Part shown: positions 4,785 through 32,033 of the stretch, in pieces
How positions within the stretch are numbered: the stretch's first letter is position 1
Layout of the letters: every line of letters begins with the position of its first letter
Assembly: GCA_030685015.1 (NCBI GenBank)
Contig: JAUXWS010000050.1
Span: 1 to 44,369, forward strand
Source: a bacterium
GTDB taxonomy: Bacteria; CAIWAD01
DNA length: 44,369 nt
Reading direction: 5' to 3'
Program-made: the position numbers and the translations under genes
The notes under the pieces: generated by a model
Seen by the model: the letters and a program-made list of their open reading frames with translations, nothing else
The model's database searches: none
Told to the model about the DNA's origin: nothing

Positions 4785-5248
4785 GGCTGCTGATCGTGGA
4801 GGATGACGGCGGCAGCCGCACCATCCTCGAGGAGCATGTGGGCGCCCGCGGCTGGACGACCTGCTGCGCCGCCTCGCCCGTCCAGGCCGAACAGCTGCTG
4901 TCCGGCCGGGAGGTGGACCTGGTCTTGAGCGACATCCATCTGCCCGGCTCCAGCGGCACCGACCATATCCGCCGCTTTTGCGAGCGGGGCCTGCCCGTGG
5001 TGGTGATGACAGGCTTCCCCTCGCTGGAGACCTGCCTGGACAGCATGCGGCACGGCGCCGCCGGCTATCTGGTCAAACCCTTCAAGGTGGCCGAGTTCAT
5101 CGCCATCGCCGAGCGGGTGTTGGCCGAGCGGCGGCGCCTGGGGGACCTGGAGGCGCGGATCCGCCAGCTGGAGGCGGAGTTGGCCCGCCGGCCCTTGGAC
5201 TTTCCCACCACTGGAACAGGGCATGAGCCGGAAATGGAGAAGAGGTGA
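4781..5248 (+). CDS. Response regulator receiver protein with C-terminal coiled coil
   Basis: A 155-residue protein with a CheY-like receiver domain (about 1-115). The acidic pocket is E7, D8 and D9, the phospho-acceptor is D51 (LVLSDIHLP), the switch Thr is T77 (VVVMTGF) and the conserved Lys is K99 (YLVKPF). Residues 115-140 form a heptad-like helix (AERRRLGDLEARIRQLEAEL). There is no DNA-binding or enzymatic output domain. It overlaps the CxxCxGxG gene by 4 nt and the kinase gene by 4 nt, so it is the obvious partner of that kinase, either as a single-domain relay or through dimerisation by the coil. Confidence 0.9.
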   Translation: MRLLIVEDDGGSRTILEEHVGARGWTTCCAASPVQAEQLLSGREVDLVLSDIHLPGSSGTDHIRRFCERGLPVVVMTGFPSLETCLDSMRHGAAGYLVKPFKVAEFIAIAERVLAERRRLGDLEARIRQLEAELARRPLDFPTTGTGHEPEMEKR

Positions 5249-6468
5249 CCGGCAACGATCTGCACCCGGGCGGCGCCCCCGCCCACCTGCCGTCGGCCGA
5301 CGAGGAGCGGCGCACACCGGATCGCCAGGCGCTGGAGCTGCGCCTGGAGGAACTGGGCCGCGAGCTGGAGATCAAGGACCGCCTGCTCACCGGAAACCTC
5401 CTGCAGATGGAGCGCCTGGCCGGCAAGCTGCGGCAGATCCTCGCATCCATGTCCAGCGCCGTCCTCATGATCGAGCTGGACGGCTACCTGAGCGAGGCCA
5501 ACCCCAAGGCCCGCCTCCTGCTGGACATCCAGGACGATCTGCCCCTGCTCGCCTCCGCCGTGCTGCCCGAACCCTTGCAGAACATCGTCGACGAGGTGGT
5601 GGGCGAGGGGCGGCACGTCAGCCTGGACGCCCTCAACCTGGAGGGGTCGCGCGGCGTGCAGTGCCTGCGGGTTGACTGCCGCCTGGTGCGCGACGACGTG
5701 GGCAATCCCATCGGCGTGCTGCAGATCCTGGACGATCAGACGCACCTCATCCACATGGAGCGCCGCCTGGAGCACAGCCGAACGCTGGCCGCCCTGGGGG
5801 AGATGGCGGCCAGCGTGGCCCACGAGCTGCGCAATCCGCTGGGCGGCATCGGCGGATTCGCCGCCCTGCTCAAGGAGACCCTGCCCCCCGGCGGCGACGC
5901 CCACCGCTATGTGCTCAAGATCATCGAGGGGGTCAACGGCCTCAACAAGGTCGCCACCAACCTGCTGGCCTACACGCGGCCGGTGGATCCCCGCCTCCAG
6001 GTGCTGGACCTGCGCAGCCTGCTCCGGGAGGTGCTCTCCTTCATTCAGATCGAGGTGGAGCAGGAGCACATGCCCATCGAGCTGGAGATCGATCTGGGCC
6101 AGCACGAACTGCCCGTGCGCATGGATCCGGAGCTGATGCGGCAGTGCTTTCTCAACCTGCTCAAGAATGCGGCGCAGTGCTTTGAGGGAGGGCCTGGGCG
6201 GATGGGGTGCCGGGTCATCCCGCCGGAGGAGCCCTACAACCTGGAGCGCGTCACGGTGGAGGTCTGGGACAAAGGTCCGGGCATCCCGGATTCCCTCCAC
6301 GCCAAGCTGTTCAACCCCTTTTTCACCACCCGGGCCAAGGGCACGGGACTGGGACTGGCCATCGTGCGCAAGAACGTGGAGCTGCATGGCGGCGAGGTGT
6401 CGCTGCAGTCGCGGCCGGGGGAAGGCGCCTGTTTCAGCGTGCGCCTGCCTCTTTCGCGGGAGCTTTGA
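5245..6468 (+). CDS. Soluble PAS-domain sensor histidine kinase
   Basis: A 407-residue kinase with no membrane segment, so probably a cytosolic sensor. A coiled coil (about 30-65) leads into a PAS domain (about 65-170, from LRQILASMSSAVLMIELDGY). The HisKA domain has the phospho-acceptor H193 in SVAHELRNPLGGIGG. The HATPase domain has the N box NLLKNAAQC near residue 304, G1 KGPGIP, the F box NPFFTT, and G2 KGTGLGLAIV. The GTG start overlaps the receiver stop (GTGA). Architecture is of the NtrB/AtoS type, and an NtrC-type regulator lies 170 nt downstream, so two outputs (the short receiver and the NtrC protein) may be served. Confidence 0.92.
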   Translation: MTGNDLHPGGAPAHLPSADEERRTPDRQALELRLEELGRELEIKDRLLTGNLLQMERLAGKLRQILASMSSAVLMIELDGYLSEANPKARLLLDIQDDLPLLASAVLPEPLQNIVDEVVGEGRHVSLDALNLEGSRGVQCLRVDCRLVRDDVGNPIGVLQILDDQTHLIHMERRLEHSRTLAALGEMAASVAHELRNPLGGIGGFAALLKETLPPGGDAHRYVLKIIEGVNGLNKVATNLLAYTRPVDPRLQVLDLRSLLREVLSFIQIEVEQEHMPIELEIDLGQHELPVRMDPELMRQCFLNLLKNAAQCFEGGPGRMGCRVIPPEEPYNLERVTVEVWDKGPGIPDSLHAKLFNPFFTTRAKGTGLGLAIVRKNVELHGGEVSLQSRPGEGACFSVRLPLSREL

Positions 6469-6521
6469 TCTCCTGGTGGGGCGGGCCCGGCGTCGGAAGC
6501 GGCGGAAAGGGAGCAGGGAGA

Positions 6522-6590
6522 GGGATGGAAGGGCGGAAAGTGGGAGAGGGACGCGGCGGGCCGGGCGGGTTGCCCGGGCCTTCCATCTCC
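6522..6590 (+). promoter_or_regulatory. Nested hairpin and polypurine leader ahead of the NtrC-type gene
   Basis: The 169-nt gap between kinase and regulator contains a long purine-rich run (about 6495-6560). Bases 6522-6532 can pair with 6579-6589 (11 pairs, one G-T), enclosing a perfect 6-bp hairpin CCGGGC/GCCCGG (6561-6566 with 6572-6577, loop GGGTT). It could attenuate or stabilise the downstream message. There is no T-run, so simple intrinsic termination is doubtful. No sigma-54 or clear sigma-70 promoter was found here. Confidence 0.4.
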
Positions 6591-6637
6591 GCTGCTTCCA
6601 CCTGGATCCTCATGCTTAGTCCGGAGGAAGGGGCGTG

Positions 6638-8050
6638 ATGAGCGAGACAATGGGCGGCCGCAGCGTGCTGGTCGTGGACGACGAGAAGCTGATCCGCGAA
6701 CTGCTGGAGGAGGGTCTGGGGCGGCTGGGCTACAAGGTGCGCTGCGCCCCGGGCGGCCGCGAGGCCCTGGCCCATCTGGAGCAGGAGCCCTCCGAGGTCG
6801 TCCTCACCGACATCAAGATGGACGGGATGGACGGCTACGAGTTCCTGGAGGAGCTGCGTCGCCGCCTGCCGGAGCAGATGGTGATCATGATGACGGCCTT
6901 CGGCAGCGTGGACAGCGCCATCCGCGCCATCAAGCTGGGCGCCTTCGACTACATCCAGAAGCCGTGCATGGTGGCGGAGGTGGACCACCGGTTGCGCAAG
7001 GCTTTCGAGCATCGCGACCTGATCCAGGAGACGCGCATGTTGCGCGGACGGCTGGAGGGGCGCGAGGAGTTCGGCAAGATCGTCGCCCGCAACGCCGCCA
7101 TGAAGCAGATCTTCGACACGATCCGAACCGTCGCGCCCAGTGGCTCCACCGTCCTCATCCAGGGCGAGAACGGCACGGGCAAGGAGCTGGTGGCCCGCGC
7201 CCTGCACCACTACAGCAACCGCGCCGACAAGAAGTTCGTGGCCAAGAACTGCGCCGCCATCCCCGACGCCCTGCTGGAAAGCGAGCTTTTCGGCCACGTC
7301 AAGGGGGCCTTCACCGGATCGGTGGGGGACCGCAAGGGCATCTTCGAGGAGGCCGACGGCGGAACCCTCTTCCTGGACGAGATCTCGGAAATGCCGCTCA
7401 ACCTGCAGAGCAAGCTGCTCCGGGTCGTGCAGGAGGGCGTGCTCAACCGGGTGGGCTCCAACGAGGACATCAGCGTCGACGTGCGCCTGATCAGCTCCAC
7501 CAACCGGGACATCAAGACGGAAGTGCAGGAGGGGCGCTTCCGCCGCGACCTCTACTACCGCCTCAACGTCATCCCCATCCTGCTGCCGCCCCTGCGGGAG
7601 CGGGTGGACGACATCCCCCTGCTCGCCGAGCACTTCCTGCGCAAGTACGCCCAGCGCATGAACCGCCACATCGTCGGCATCGATGAAAGCGGGATGCGCG
7701 CCCTCATGTCGCGTCGCTGGGAGGGCAACGTGCGGGAGCTGGAGAACACCATCGAGCGCGCCGTGGTGATGGCCACGACCCCCATCCTCGACGCCGGCAG
7801 CTTCAAGCCCCTCGATCAACTGACCGAGGAAGGCGCCGACTTCGAGCTGCCCCTGGCCGACCTGACCGTCCACGAGATGGAGAAGCGGCTCATCCTGGCC
7901 ACCCTCAAGCGCTATGGCAACAACCGGACACGCACGGCGGAGGTGCTGGACATCAGCATCCGCACCCTGCGCAACAAGCTGAACGAGTACCGCGCCGCCG
8001 ATCCCGGCCTTTCGGCGATCATCGACAAAGGGGCGCCGGACGTGGAATGA
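6638..8050 (+). CDS. Sigma-54-dependent NtrC-family response regulator
   Basis: A 470-residue transcriptional activator. The receiver domain (1-120) has D14, D15 and phospho-acceptor D58 (LTDIKM), plus K near 107 (YIQKP). The AAA+ sigma-54 activation domain (about 150-380) has Walker A GENGTGKE near 176, the sigma-54 contact loop GAFTGS near 222 (usually GAFTGA; a Ser at the last place is tolerated in the family) and Walker B GGTLFLDE. The C-terminal Fis-type helix-turn-helix is AEVLDISIRTLRNKLNEY. A good ribosome site (GGAGGAAGG, 6623-6631) serves ATG 6638; a GTG at 6635 is equally in frame. It overlaps the cyclase gene by 4 nt. It requires RpoN, which is not in this window. Confidence 0.95.
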   Translation: MSETMGGRSVLVVDDEKLIRELLEEGLGRLGYKVRCAPGGREALAHLEQEPSEVVLTDIKMDGMDGYEFLEELRRRLPEQMVIMMTAFGSVDSAIRAIKLGAFDYIQKPCMVAEVDHRLRKAFEHRDLIQETRMLRGRLEGREEFGKIVARNAAMKQIFDTIRTVAPSGSTVLIQGENGTGKELVARALHHYSNRADKKFVAKNCAAIPDALLESELFGHVKGAFTGSVGDRKGIFEEADGGTLFLDEISEMPLNLQSKLLRVVQEGVLNRVGSNEDISVDVRLISSTNRDIKTEVQEGRFRRDLYYRLNVIPILLPPLRERVDDIPLLAEHFLRKYAQRMNRHIVGIDESGMRALMSRRWEGNVRELENTIERAVVMATTPILDAGSFKPLDQLTEEGADFELPLADLTVHEMEKRLILATLKRYGNNRTRTAEVLDISIRTLRNKLNEYRAADPGLSAIIDKGAPDVE

Positions 8051-10257
8051 CGCCCGCCGCGACGCCCAGCCCGGCCCCCGCCCGTGGTGCGCTGGGGCAC
8101 AAGAGCGCGCCACGCGCCCGGCGCTGGTGGATCGCCGCCCTGCTGGCCTTCCTGCTCGCCTGCCTGCTCCGCCTGGCGGACACGCAGCTCTTCGGCCTGG
8201 AGGCGCGCAGCCTCGACCTGCGCTTCCAGCTGCGCGGACCCCGCCCCGTCGACCACAGCCCACTGGTGCTGGTCACGGTGGACAACCGCAGCTACAAGGA
8301 TCTCAACCAGCGCTGGCCCTTTCCCCGCGGCCATTTCGCCCGTGCCCTGCGCAATCTGAAGCGCCTGGGCGTAGACCTCATCGTGCTCGACATCCAGTTC
8401 ACGGAGGAGGCGGCGGGCGACGAGGCCGGCCTGGCCGAGCTGGCCGCCGCCGTGCGCGACTGCGCCCCGGTCATCCTTTCCGGCGAGATGGTCTACGAGC
8501 GCAGCGGTTACCAGCGCCTGGACCGGCCACTGCCTGTATTGCTGGAGGCGGGCCAGCCCTGGGCCCTGGTCAATGACCTGATCGACCCGGACGGCGTCAG
8601 CCGCCTCTACCCGCTCTTCCTGCCGGCGCCGCTGGGCGGAGAGGCCCTGCCCAGCCTGGGCGCCCGCCTGCTGCTCAGCCTGGACTCGCTGGCCGGCCGC
8701 GGGGACGGCGCGCCCTTCGGCGCCCGGCGGGGCAAGCGGCTCGTGCTGGGCGCCCATCAGCCGCTGCTCGAGCCGGGTTGGGCCAACGCCATCCGCATCA
8801 ATTTCTATGGGCCGGGCGGCACCTGGACCCACTACTCCTTCTCCGACATCCTGGACGACGCCGACTTCACCCTGGCCGATCCCGACCAGGACACGGACTA
8901 CGTGGAGAGCCTGGCCGACACCGCGCTCTACCGCGCGCTGTGGGGCGACGATCCACATCCCTTCCTGGGGAGAGTGGCCTTGGTCGGGGTCAGCGCCACC
9001 GATCTCCACGACAACAAGCGCACGCCCTTCTTCAACTTCCAGGGCCAGCGCCGCCTGGTGCCGGGGGTGGAGGTGCACGCCCACGCCGTGCAGACCATGC
9101 TGGACGGCGCCTGGGTGCGCAATCCCCTGCCCGGCTGGTGGGCCGCCCTGCCCCTGGGCCTGCTCGCCCTGGCCGCCGCCTGGGTCACCGGGCGGATGGG
9201 TCCCCTGCGCGGCCTGCTCGCCCTGGTGGCGCTGGGAGTGGCCTGGCTGGCCGCCGGCCAGTGGGCCTTCGCCCGGCACGATCTCTGGCTGGAGACGGTG
9301 GCTCCCCTGTCGTCCCTGGCGGCGGCCTGGATGACGGGCGTTCTGCTGCAGTTCCTCCAGGCCCGGCGCGAGCGGGCCCAGATCCGCGGCATGTTCGCCC
9401 AGTATGTGCCGGAGGCGGTGGTGGCGGAGTTGATCCGCAACCCTGACAAGCTGGTGTTGGGGGGCGAGGAGCGCGAGATGAGCGCGCTCTTCTCGGACGT
9501 GGAGGGCTTCACCTCCATCTCGGAGCATTTGACGCCCACCCAGTTGGTGGAGCTGCTCAACGAGTACCTGACGGAGATGACACAGTGCGTCACGGACGAG
9601 GGCGGCATCATCGACAAGTATGAGGGCGACGCCATCATCGCCGAGTTCGGCGCGCCCCTGCCCTGCGCCGACCATGCCCAGCGCGCCGCGCGGGCGGCCT
9701 TGGCCATGCAGGAGCGGTTGGCCGGCCTGCGCCGGGACTGGGCCTTGCGCGGCAAGCCGCAGCTGAAGGCGCGGGTGGGCATCAACTCGGGCCTGATGGT
9801 CGTGGGCAACATGGGCAGCCGCCAGATCTTCGACTACACGGCGATGGGGGACGCCATGAACCTGGCCAGCCGCCTGGAGGGCGTCAACAAGTTCTACGGC
9901 AGCGCCATCCTTTTGTCGGGGGAGAGTTGGGCGCGGCTTGAGAGGGCCTTCCTGGGCCGCTGCCTGGACGCCATCCGTGTCAAGGGGCGGCGCGAGCCGG
10001 TCCAATTGTGGGAGCTGATCGCCCGCGCCGATGATGCGCGGGCCGCCACGCACCTGGAGAGCATCGGACGCTGGGACGCCGCCCGCGCCCACTACCTGGC
10101 CCGCGACTTCGCCGCCGCCGCCGCCGCCTTCGAGGCCCTGGCCGCCACCGATGCGGAGGACGGCCCCGCCCGCGTCCTGGCCGCCCGCAGCCGCGCCTTT
10201 GCCGCCGATCCTCCCTCCGCCGACTGGGACGGCGTGCAGACCATGCTGGACAAATGA
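8047..10257 (+). CDS. CHASE2-domain class III adenylate/guanylate cyclase
   Basis: A 736-residue membrane cyclase. A first membrane helix (about 27-45) is followed by an extracytoplasmic CHASE2 sensor (about 45-350; PLVLVTVDNRSY, WPFPRGHFARAL and GVDLIVLDIQF are typical). Three close-set membrane helices (about 360-440) lead to a class III catalytic domain (about 470-650). Metal-binding aspartates lie in FSDVEGFT and DKYEGDAI; the MGDAMNLASRLE segment holds the substrate-base Asp and the transition-state Asn and Arg. The C-terminal 70 residues, with an Ala run (GCC repeats at about 10110-10129), may be helical. An Asp in MGD favours ATP over GTP, but this is not proof. It is coupled by 4-nt overlaps to the NtrC regulator and to the acyltransferase. 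Confidence 0.93.
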   Translation: MTPAATPSPAPARGALGHKSAPRARRWWIAALLAFLLACLLRLADTQLFGLEARSLDLRFQLRGPRPVDHSPLVLVTVDNRSYKDLNQRWPFPRGHFARALRNLKRLGVDLIVLDIQFTEEAAGDEAGLAELAAAVRDCAPVILSGEMVYERSGYQRLDRPLPVLLEAGQPWALVNDLIDPDGVSRLYPLFLPAPLGGEALPSLGARLLLSLDSLAGRGDGAPFGARRGKRLVLGAHQPLLEPGWANAIRINFYGPGGTWTHYSFSDILDDADFTLADPDQDTDYVESLADTALYRALWGDDPHPFLGRVALVGVSATDLHDNKRTPFFNFQGQRRLVPGVEVHAHAVQTMLDGAWVRNPLPGWWAALPLGLLALAAAWVTGRMGPLRGLLALVALGVAWLAAGQWAFARHDLWLETVAPLSSLAAAWMTGVLLQFLQARRERAQIRGMFAQYVPEAVVAELIRNPDKLVLGGEEREMSALFSDVEGFTSISEHLTPTQLVELLNEYLTEMTQCVTDEGGIIDKYEGDAIIAEFGAPLPCADHAQRAARAALAMQERLAGLRRDWALRGKPQLKARVGINSGLMVVGNMGSRQIFDYTAMGDAMNLASRLEGVNKFYGSAILLSGESWARLERAFLGRCLDAIRVKGRREPVQLWELIARADDARAATHLESIGRWDAARAHYLARDFAAAAAAFEALAATDAEDGPARVLAARSRAFAADPPSADWDGVQTMLDK

Positions 10258-13932: not shown

Positions 13933-14129
13933 GCAGCCTGTCGGGCTTGGACCTTCGATGGGATTCGCGCCGAAGGCGCGCGCCCATGTCGAGGGCCATT
14001 CGGCGGGGATTTCGCGTCGCGATATGGCATTTGCTCGCAAGAAATTTGCGTCGAATGGGACCGGCCTGCCTGACGCTTGCGTCGGGCGGGGCGATGAAGA
14101 CCGCGAAGCGGCCAGGTCCGACAGGCTGC
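13933..14129 (+). repeat. MITE-like intergenic repeat, copy 1 (197 nt)
   Basis: This shares with 29581-29764 the same order of blocks: GCAGCCTGTCGGGCTTGGAC at the left end, GGCGGGGATTTCGCG, GCTCGCAAGAAAT, TCGAATGGGACCGGC, GGGGCGATGAAGACC, and GACAGGCTGC at the right end. By hand I count about 21 mismatches over 184 positions plus one 13-nt indel. The ends are imperfect inverted repeats (16 of 18 bases here). CAA flanks both ends, a possible 3-bp target duplication. Copy 1 has an extra palindrome (GCGCC/GGCGC, 13967-13979) that copy 2 lacks. A 9-bp hairpin with a TT loop lies at 68-76/79-87 of the 14000s. The element ends 18 nt before the comF start, upstream of its ribosome site. Confidence 0.85.
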
Positions 14130-29580: not shown

Positions 29581-29764
29581 GCAGCCTGTCGGGCTTGGAC
29601 CTTCGATGGGATTCGTGCCCCTGTCGAGGGCCATTTGGCGGGGATTTCGCGATGCGTAATGGCAGTTGCTCGCAAGAAATCTGCGTCGAATGGGACCGGC
29701 AGGCTCGACGCGAGCGTCGGGTGGGGCGATGAAGACCTCGAAGCGGCAAAGCCTGACAGGCTGC
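29581..29764 (+). repeat. MITE-like intergenic repeat, copy 2 (184 nt)
   Basis: This is the second copy of the element at 13933-14129, in the same orientation and also just upstream of a plus-strand gene (32 nt before ATG 29796). Its terminal inverted repeat is GCAGCCTGTC plus a GGCTT core. The internal hairpin GCTCGACGC-GA-GCGTCGGGT occupies the place of GCCTGACGC-TT-GCGTCGGGC in copy 1: bases differ, pairing is kept through wobble changes. Flanks share only TG at each end, so a target duplication is unproven. The 13-nt difference between copies and the lack of a common open frame argue against coding. Confidence 0.85.
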
Positions 29765-29795
29765 TGGGCCCGATCATCCCATGGGAGAAGACAAG

Positions 29796-32033
29796 ATGTA
29801 CTTGAGCCCGGTACTCCAGGACTGGTTCACCCGTGCGGCGGCCGTGGCGCTCGAGTTCGGGCGCGGGGACTGGGGTCTGCCCGAACTGATGATCGCCTCC
29901 CTGCAGGACCCGGACAAGATCCTGGACACCTGGCAGGGGCTGCTCAAGGGCGATGAGCATCGCGAGGCGCTGCTGGCCCATTTCCGCCAATCCTCCAGCG
30001 CCGTGGCCGCCCAGGAGGCGGCCCGCGTCGCCGCGCCGGATGCCGGCGAGGAAGGGGAGGAAGAGGACGGCCTTGATGGTCTGCGCGAAGCGATGGCGGA
30101 CTACACGCCGCCCCCGGACGACACGGTGCTGAGCGTGCTGGCCAGCTGGCAGTCCGAGAAGGGCGAGGAGGAGCTGGAGGCCGACCACTTCCTGCAGCTG
30201 CTGCTCTTCAACTGGGACCAGCTCTACCCCCTCCCGCTGGAGAAGCTGGGCGTCGAGCTGGTGCGCCGCGCCGAAGGGGCCGCCGACTTCCTGCGGGCCA
30301 TGTTCTCCCCCGACCACGACCTCAACCGGCGCTACGGGGAGGATCCCATGCAGGGATTGCTGCCCTATCCGGAGTATTGCCGGGCGGCGATGGAGGTGCT
30401 GGTGCGCCGCTACCGCCAGAACCTGCTCATCTACGGGCAGCCCGGGGTGGGCAAGAGCATGGTGCTGCGGCGGCTGATCGAGGAGACGGCCGCCGGCCGC
30501 GTGCCCCGCATCTTCGCCGGCAAACGCTTCTTCGAGTTTCCCCGCGAGGTCTTCCTCAAGGACCTGCAGAGCCAGCAGGACCTGGCCAACCGCTTCGAAG
30601 TGCTGCGCCGCTTCCTGGAGCAGCACCCGGAGATCATCCTTGTCCTGGACGGCTTCCACCACTGGTTCGCCAACGCCACGCCGGTGATGCAGGACTTCCT
30701 CCAGCGCCTCTTCGGCCTGCTCCAGTTCAAGAGGCTGCACTTTGTCCTTCTGACCGACGTGGACTTCGTCAACCGGGTGATCAAGGTCAATCCCGTCTTC
30801 GAGGAGCTGCTCGCCCCGCTCTACATCAAGCCCCTGCCCCGTGGCGACGTGCTCCTGATCCTTGAGCAGGTCAAGGACAAGTTCGAGGAGCAGTACGGGG
30901 TGCCGCTGGACCGCGGCCAGCTGGAGCGCCTGGTGGAGATGGCCGATGAGCACGTGCGCACCAGCCAGTTCCCCAAGAAGGCGCTCATCCTCCTCGACGT
31001 CGCCCTCTCCATCCTTGCCTTGTCGGAGGACTCCTGCCCGCCCAATTGGGAATCCGTGCTGCGCCTGGCCCTGGGCCGCATCACCGGCCGCGAGGAGGCG
31101 GATTTCCCCGATCTGCAGGAGCGGCTGAGCCGCCTGGAGGAATTGCTCAGTTCGCGCATCATCGGCCAGGACGCCGCCATCCAGGAGGTGTGCCGCACGA
31201 TCCGCTTCACCAAGAGTGACCTGGACCTCAACCCGGAGCGGCCCGACGGCGTATTCCTCTTTGCCGGGCCAGCCGGCGTGGGCAAACAGCTCTTCGCCGG
31301 GGAGCTGTCGCGCATCCTCTACAACCGCGAGCCCTTCCTCGTGGAGATGAGCGAGTTCCAGGAGGCGGAGAGCCTGCAACTGATCGTGGGCCGGGTGCCC
31401 GGCGCCGAGGGTGGCTATCCTTTGCAGACCGTGTGGGAGCGCCTGCGGGCGGAGCCGCGGCGCGTCCTCATCCTCAAGAACATTGAATTCGCCGCGGGCG
31501 AGGTGCTGCACTATTTCCTGAAGAGCTTCGAGGAGGGCAGCCTGCGGGACGCCGCCGGCCAGCAGATGCCCGTCAACGAGACCACCGTCGTCCTGCTGTC
31601 CGATCTGGTCGGCTTCGAACACAAGGGCAGCATCGGCTTCCAGAGCCCTGAGGTGGGGCGCCTGAGTGAGGTCGTGCTGCGCGACTACTTCACGCCGGAG
31701 CTGCTGCGCGGCGTGGACAAGCTGGTCGTCTTCCAGCCGCTGGCGGAGGAGGATCTGCTGCGCATCCTGCGGGAGCGGATCGTGCCCGCCTTCCAGTCCA
31801 AGGTGGCCCGGCTGGGCCATGAGCTGGATGTCTCGCCCGACGTGTCCCAGTGGCTGGCCCACCAAGGCAGCAGGCAGGACGTGAGTGCCCGCAACGTGGA
31901 CCGCAAGTTCGAGGAGTTGGTGGCGGAACGGGTCAATGAGGAGATCCTGGCCTCCAACGGGAAGCCCATGCGGATCCAGGTCAGCCTGGCGGAGGGGAGG
32001 GTGCGGTTGGCGAGTCGGCCGGTGGGGTCCTGA
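29796..32033 (+). CDS. Divergent Clp-like double AAA+ protein with a degenerate second module
   Basis: A 745-residue protein laid out like ClpA/ClpC. An N-terminal helical region resembles a Clp N domain (AAAVALEFGRGDWGLPELMIASLQDPD). AAA+ 1 (about 195-400) has Walker A GQPGVGKS near 213 and a Walker B-like LVLDGFHHW near 285 (Gly replaces the catalytic Glu). AAA+ 2 (about 450-700) has Walker A GPAGVGKQ near 490. Its Walker B strand is VLILKNIEFA instead of the usual LLDEIEKA, sensor 1 is LLSDLVG instead of TSNLG, and the usual PPGYVGYEEGG pore loop is shortened to VPGAEGG. An SARNVDR sensor 2 remains. Threading and unfolding by module 2 look lost; a regulatory or structural role is inferred. 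ATG 29796 is chosen for its GGGAGAAG site (29783-29790); ATG 29781 would add five residues. Confidence 0.8.
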   Translation: MYLSPVLQDWFTRAAAVALEFGRGDWGLPELMIASLQDPDKILDTWQGLLKGDEHREALLAHFRQSSSAVAAQEAARVAAPDAGEEGEEEDGLDGLREAMADYTPPPDDTVLSVLASWQSEKGEEELEADHFLQLLLFNWDQLYPLPLEKLGVELVRRAEGAADFLRAMFSPDHDLNRRYGEDPMQGLLPYPEYCRAAMEVLVRRYRQNLLIYGQPGVGKSMVLRRLIEETAAGRVPRIFAGKRFFEFPREVFLKDLQSQQDLANRFEVLRRFLEQHPEIILVLDGFHHWFANATPVMQDFLQRLFGLLQFKRLHFVLLTDVDFVNRVIKVNPVFEELLAPLYIKPLPRGDVLLILEQVKDKFEEQYGVPLDRGQLERLVEMADEHVRTSQFPKKALILLDVALSILALSEDSCPPNWESVLRLALGRITGREEADFPDLQERLSRLEELLSSRIIGQDAAIQEVCRTIRFTKSDLDLNPERPDGVFLFAGPAGVGKQLFAGELSRILYNREPFLVEMSEFQEAESLQLIVGRVPGAEGGYPLQTVWERLRAEPRRVLILKNIEFAAGEVLHYFLKSFEEGSLRDAAGQQMPVNETTVVLLSDLVGFEHKGSIGFQSPEVGRLSEVVLRDYFTPELLRGVDKLVVFQPLAEEDLLRILRERIVPAFQSKVARLGHELDVSPDVSQWLAHQGSRQDVSARNVDRKFEELVAERVNEEILASNGKPMRIQVSLAEGRVRLASRPVGS

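Follow-up and report, generated by a model that had tools for sequence, protein, structure and literature searches.

A gene at positions 29796-32033 (+ strand) of the window, the whole 44,369-nucleotide stretch of bacterial DNA that was analyzed, encodes a two-module Hsp100-like protein. By sequence, it has retained its AAA+ modules and a candidate ClpP-docking loop, and has lost the residues that serve ATP hydrolysis, triggering between subunits and the pulling of substrates. ATP-burning unfoldases are thought to feed ClpP. We refer to the window protein and its orthologs together as X, and we see an even chance that X is a conserved Hsp100/Clp pseudo-unfoldase that acts, most likely, as a partner of ClpP that is independent of ATP hydrolysis.

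The gene and its altered motor residues

The open reading frame at this locus extends from 29781 to 32033 (+), and would encode 750 amino acids from an upstream ATG at 29781. The ATG at 29796, giving a product of 745 amino acids, is the better-supported start because GGGAG is located approximately 8 nt upstream of it and the corresponding methionine is the first residue of the orthologs in genomes G002, G003 and G004. This bears out the open reading frame, and its start, given in a preliminary description of this DNA.

In searches of NCBIfam, the best match to the window protein was the ClpA model (2.7e-56), and the ClpB model matched at 1.5e-54, with both AAA+ modules (D1 and D2) covered. Both matches were far under the equivalog cut-offs (191 bits for ClpA, compared to a cut-off of 993). 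The protein also matched ClpB in the PDB (chain 1qvr, 4.5e-51) and the Pfam domains AAA_2 (1.1e-13), AAA_lid_9 (1.4e-8) and ClpB_D2-small (4.4e-5). The tandem pair of Clp-type AAA+ modules, together with AAA_lid_9 and ClpB_D2-small, constitutes the Hsp100/Clp class I architecture, and there is no M-domain between D1 and D2, as in ClpA. The N-terminal domain (29796-30305, +) is fast evolving, with 64% identity within the genus. Pfam Clp_N had no match in the window protein, and hhalign detected a weak match of this region to the first Clp_N repeat (P=0.0075). A structure predicted with AF2 from a two-sequence input was of low confidence (pLDDT 42 for the whole protein and 53 for D2). Foldseek with this D2 model ranked the D2 of ClpB/ClpC first, at a TM of ~0.4 and an rmsd of ~11, values that add little beyond the sequence.

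We aligned the motor motifs of the window protein, all on the + strand, with those of other Clp proteins. In D1, Walker A (GQPGVGKS, 30435-30458) is intact. Walker B (LVLDGFHHW, 30639-30665) keeps its Asp and has Gly in place of the catalytic Glu. Both Arg fingers are lost from the region NPVFEELLAPLY (30789-30824; canonical ALERRFQ), where Arg-Arg is replaced by Glu-Leu, and the pore Tyr is replaced by Ser. In D2, Walker A (GPAGVGKQ, 31266-31289) keeps its Lys and has Gln in place of Thr, the Thr/Ser being lost in all five orthologs. The Asp-Glu of D2 Walker B is replaced by Lys-Asn (VLILKNIEFA, 31464-31493, compared to VLLLDEIEKA in Clp); LKN is common to four of the five orthologs, and G001 has LED. 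Sensor 1 (LLSD, 31593-31604) has Asp for Asn. The Arg finger is replaced by Gly (LLRGVDK, 31701-31721; LRGVD versus LNRID), with GVDK common to three of five orthologs. The sensor-2 Arg is present in the window protein (SARN, 31884-31895) and in G003, and is lost in G002, G004 and G001. The D2 pore-loop region, GRVPGAEGGYPLQTV (31389-31433), has lost its aromatic pore residue.

The preliminary description had judged that the second module looks ATPase-dead on the basis of its Walker B, its sensor 1 and a Walker A ending in GKQ, and had noted the missing catalytic Glu in D1. These observations all hold, and its account of the motifs was essentially right except in one respect. The D2 pore loop, described as deleted, is remodelled at unchanged length in the window protein's genus (GRVPGAEGGYPLQTV versus GAPPGYVGFEEGGQL), and is shorter only in the orthologs from G004 and G001. 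The Arg fingers of D2 and D1, the D1 pore Tyr, the sensor-2 Arg and the conserved ClpP-docking IGF had been overlooked.

The same losses recur in relatives. X is present in all five genomes that represent the window's phylum in the set searched, with identities to the window protein of 75, 74, 47 and 33%. The ortholog with 33% identity is from another family, and the frame is open in the five genomes across the two families. Within the genus, dN/dS was 0.22-0.30 for X and 0.15-0.23 for ClpC; the values for X indicate purifying selection. X evolves faster than ClpC, with 75% identity within the genus compared to 87%. Using E. coli ClpA for reference positions, we found none of the following in any of the five X proteins: the D1 Walker-B Glu, either D1 Arg finger, the D1 pore Tyr, the D2 Walker-A Thr/Ser, the D2 Walker-B Asp and Glu, the D2 pore Tyr and the D2 Arg finger. 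The D2 sensor-1 Asn was present in one of five and the sensor-2 Arg in two of five. The Walker-A Lys was kept in three of five for D1 and in five of five for D2. Among 34 comparison Clps, the D1 Walker-B Asp, the D2 Walker-B Asp and Glu, and the Arg fingers were each kept in all 34, the D1 Walker-B Glu in 33, and all motor positions scored in 31 to 34. Because these Walker-B and Arg-finger positions are kept in 33-34 of the 34 comparison proteins, the losses are not due to chance. The Hsp100/Clp class I hallmarks that X does not share are Walker A and B with a catalytic Asp-Glu in both modules (the Glu is lost from both in all five proteins), the Arg fingers and the aromatic pore loops. The loss of unfoldase chemistry is well supported at the level of sequence. 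The preliminary description had read the protein as a pseudo-unfoldase and had proposed looking for the same losses in relatives, together with purifying selection; both were found, and they support that reading.

The neighbors of the gene are a divergent upstream gene for a radical-SAM protein, a convergent downstream rpmB, and aroB. With this arrangement on its two sides, the gene has no operon partner, and neither clpP nor another protease gene adjoins it. The synteny is common to the window genome and G004 and does not extend to G001. There is an intact ClpC in every genome with X, and the window genome (ClpC on contig C40) also carries an intact ClpB (C71). An additional long Clp of 1118 amino acids in the window genome (L017; G000:C59:65733-69086) has an intact D2, an MGF loop and a D1 in which Walker B and the Arg fingers are degenerate. 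Of the five genomes with X, the window genome is the only one in which this long Clp was found, and there is a similar protein (L097) in G121. Elsewhere in the window, a dispersed intergenic repeat of ~190 nt, 86-87% identical, occurs at 13933-14129 and at 29581-29764, the latter directly 5' of the pseudo-Clp gene. Genes for a histidine kinase, a sigma-54 response regulator and a CHASE2-adenylate/guanylate cyclase lie in a row at 5245-10254.

A candidate ClpP-docking loop

The stretch of X from D2 sensor 1 to the Arg finger, where ClpA and ClpC have their ClpP-docking loop, contains a candidate docking tripeptide. In the window protein it is part of SIGF (31629-31640, +), and the tripeptides of the five orthologs are IGF, MGF, MGF, MGF and VGF. 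Across these proteins, Gly619 and Phe620 are the sole invariant positions in the 34-residue loop (residues 603-636). The chance that two random invariant columns out of 34 would be this Gly and Phe is 1 in 561, in an argument framed after seeing the alignment. The docking role of this loop is established for ClpA, ClpX and ClpC (PMC9035409; PMC10149685). IGF loops dock at the H sites of ClpP, and ADEP binds the same sites and activates ClpP without a motor (PMC9035409). The dock was carried by 25 of the 34 comparison Clps; ClpB-type proteins with intact motors are without it (PMC10149685).

There was one strong match to clpP in each of the five genomes with X, and ClpP genes were found in all 14 other genomes with pseudo-Clps described below (19 of 19 in total). 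This co-occurrence says little about docking, given the length of the motif (three residues) and the near-universal presence of ClpP. We looked for ClpS in 12 genomes and found it in none; nine of the 12 had a ClpX-type zinc finger. This zinc finger was not found in the three genomes of family f70 (G072, G213 and G359), in which ClpP is present. The preliminary description had left the role of the protein open between scaffold, adaptor and regulator; with the [ILMV]GF loop conserved, a role associated with ClpP is likely.

Similar proteins in other phyla

We screened sets of 290 and 386 genomes from across the domain and checked the motifs of the proteins recovered, with similarity cut-offs under which weaker pseudo-Clps may have escaped detection. 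Three further groups were found. PS2 comes from five genomes of family f122; PS3, of family f100, is present in six of the seven genomes searched for its phylum; and PS4 comes from three genera of family f70. Complete phylum searches from the window genome (5 genomes), G261 (14) and G102 (7) gave sets that do not overlap, and f70 is outside all three; the four groups thus come from four phyla. The genes for PS2 that we inspected (L122, L123 and L124) adjoin a gyrA-like gene and an M23-type-peptidase-like gene, followed in two of the three by an amidohydrolase-like gene. Two of the PS4 genes (L129 and L130) adjoin a gene for a CvpA-like small membrane protein, and are near infC-rpmI-rplT-pheST in two genera. 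These neighbors were recognized by eye.

In a set of 18 pseudo-Clps (five X, five PS2, five PS3 and three PS4), the Walker-B Glu of D1 and D2, the D2 Arg finger and both pore Tyr were kept in none. The dock, [VILM]G[FY], was present in all 18, as was the D2 Walker-A Lys. The losses and the universal dock make a double dissociation across the four phyla at the level of these motifs. The extent of decay varies among the groups, since PS2 still has the D1 Arg fingers and the D2 Walker-A Thr/Ser; both PS2 and PS4 retain more of the D2 nucleotide site. The recurrence of this pattern of loss and retention suggests a class of motorless protease partners that has yet to be described. A literature search that covered few subscription papers brought up no earlier description of such a bacterial pseudo-Clp.

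The preliminary description had suggested that nucleotide might be bound in the first module only. This candidate was rejected because the D1 Walker-A Lys is not conserved: it is Arg in the orthologs from G004 (GSGRHA) and G001 (GSGRST). Judging from the motifs, D1 nucleotide binding is not a trait of the family; ATP binding in D1 is possible in the window genus, in which Walker A and the Walker-B Asp are kept. Given the invariant D2 Lys, D2 may hold a nucleotide with a structural role.

A phylogenetic tree was made from 406 columns under LG+C20 with all motif columns masked. X grouped with PS2 (support 97/90) and PS3 with PS4 (100/100), and the four groups were on a common branch together with one active long Clp, L019 (93/89). 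In AU tests, a single clade of all pseudo-Clps was compatible with the data (p 0.35), and the grouping of X with its own ClpC was rejected (p 8e-11). The pseudo-Clps possibly have a single origin, with long branches in play.

Possible roles of X and comparison with known systems

If the candidate loop functions as it does in active Clps, its hydrophobic-Gly-aromatic tripeptide on the D2 face would dock into the hydrophobic clefts on ClpP that are the binding place of ClpA, ClpC, ClpX and the ADEP antibiotics. X, which is predicted to be without ATPase activity, could then act as a cap, as a competitor or as a motor-free gate opener or substrate tether. It might occupy the ClpP face and keep motors off, serving as a brake or a sorting cap. 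Alternatively, it might open the ClpP gate and admit already unfolded proteins or peptides, cargo that would be chosen by its variable N-terminal region. Should X bind a nucleotide at all, the nucleotide would have a structural role.

Several other readings were considered. We give almost no credence to decay of a ClpC or ClpA copy in the window lineage as the origin of X. The faster evolution of X relative to ClpC would fit, but the frame is open in five genomes and two families, the replacement residues LKN and GVDK are shared, and X groups away from its own ClpC. A decayed local copy was rejected on the basis of the orthologs in all five genomes searched for the phylum, a dN/dS of ~0.2-0.3 and the AU test. 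It also seems improbable that X still hydrolyzes ATP through substitute residues. The invariant D2 Walker-A Lys, the intact D1 Walker A in the window genus and the fuller D2 nucleotide site of PS2 and PS4 would be in keeping with such activity; against it, the Walker-B Glu of both modules, the D2 Arg finger and the pore residues are absent from every member, and two of the five X proteins have Arg in place of the D1 Lys.

Two other possibilities keep X catalytically dead and assign it different partners. X could be an inactive member of mixed hexamers with the active ClpC of its genome or with a different Clp, in which it would tune or poison the ring; we consider this unlikely. Every genome with X has an intact ClpC, and the ring-building large and small AAA+ subdomains are recognizable in X. 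However, a pseudo-subunit in support of a partner typically retains an Arg finger, as is seen in LAP1 and LULL1 with Torsins (PMC5425593), whereas the Arg fingers of D1 and D2 are lost in all five X proteins, which speaks against a helper of the LAP1 type that completes the site of a partner; the tree also separates X from its own ClpC. A scaffold or adaptor independent of ClpP, built on a dead Hsp100 frame in the manner of SMXL/D53, with the GF loop a leftover or a different contact, is a rather unlikely alternative. Among Clp-like proteins, those of the SMXL group are atypical and have signaling roles (PMC9133912), and the neighbors of X have no link to proteolysis. The retained IGF speaks against a plain scaffold of the SMXL kind: IGF/L is absent from SMXL (PMC9133912), and the dock is kept in all 18 pseudo-Clps while the rest of the loop varies.

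We tentatively extend the ClpP-partner reading, with somewhat less than an even chance of its being correct, to pseudo-unfoldases of at least four bacterial phyla: these would form a deep class, possibly of single origin, that docks on ClpP and controls it without ATP. The proteasome has non-ATPase activators, and the pseudo-Clp class would be their ClpP counterpart. If so, several bacterial lineages would control ClpP through a partner that does not pull, the plug having been kept and the motor lost. X would also be a natural test of the effect of docking itself on ClpP, a question now approached with ADEP drugs.

X is like ClpA and ClpC in its two AAA+ modules, its lid and D2-small domains and the [ILV]G[FL] loop in the same place, and is like ClpA in the absence of a long M-domain; it differs from both in having no Walker-B Glu, Arg fingers or pore Tyr in either module. 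ClpI of the Actinomycetota is likewise a separate Clp class by sequence, with one subtype that has an LGF loop and one that does not, but it keeps the features for ATP hydrolysis that X has lost (PMC10149685). The plant proteins SMXL/D53/SMAX1 are similarly atypical and Clp/ClpB-like, with non-chaperone signaling roles; they have an EAR motif and a long M-domain and no IGF/L (PMC9133912), whereas X keeps IGF and has no M-domain. LAP1 and LULL1 are degenerate AAA+ partners, without nucleotide motifs, in the Clp/Hsp100-related Torsin system, and both donate an Arg finger (PMC5425593), in contrast to X, in which the canonical Arg-finger positions are lost. ADEPs offer a functional analogy only: they occupy the clefts in which IGF docks and activate ClpP without ATP (PMC9035409), but are small molecules that are evolutionarily unrelated to X.
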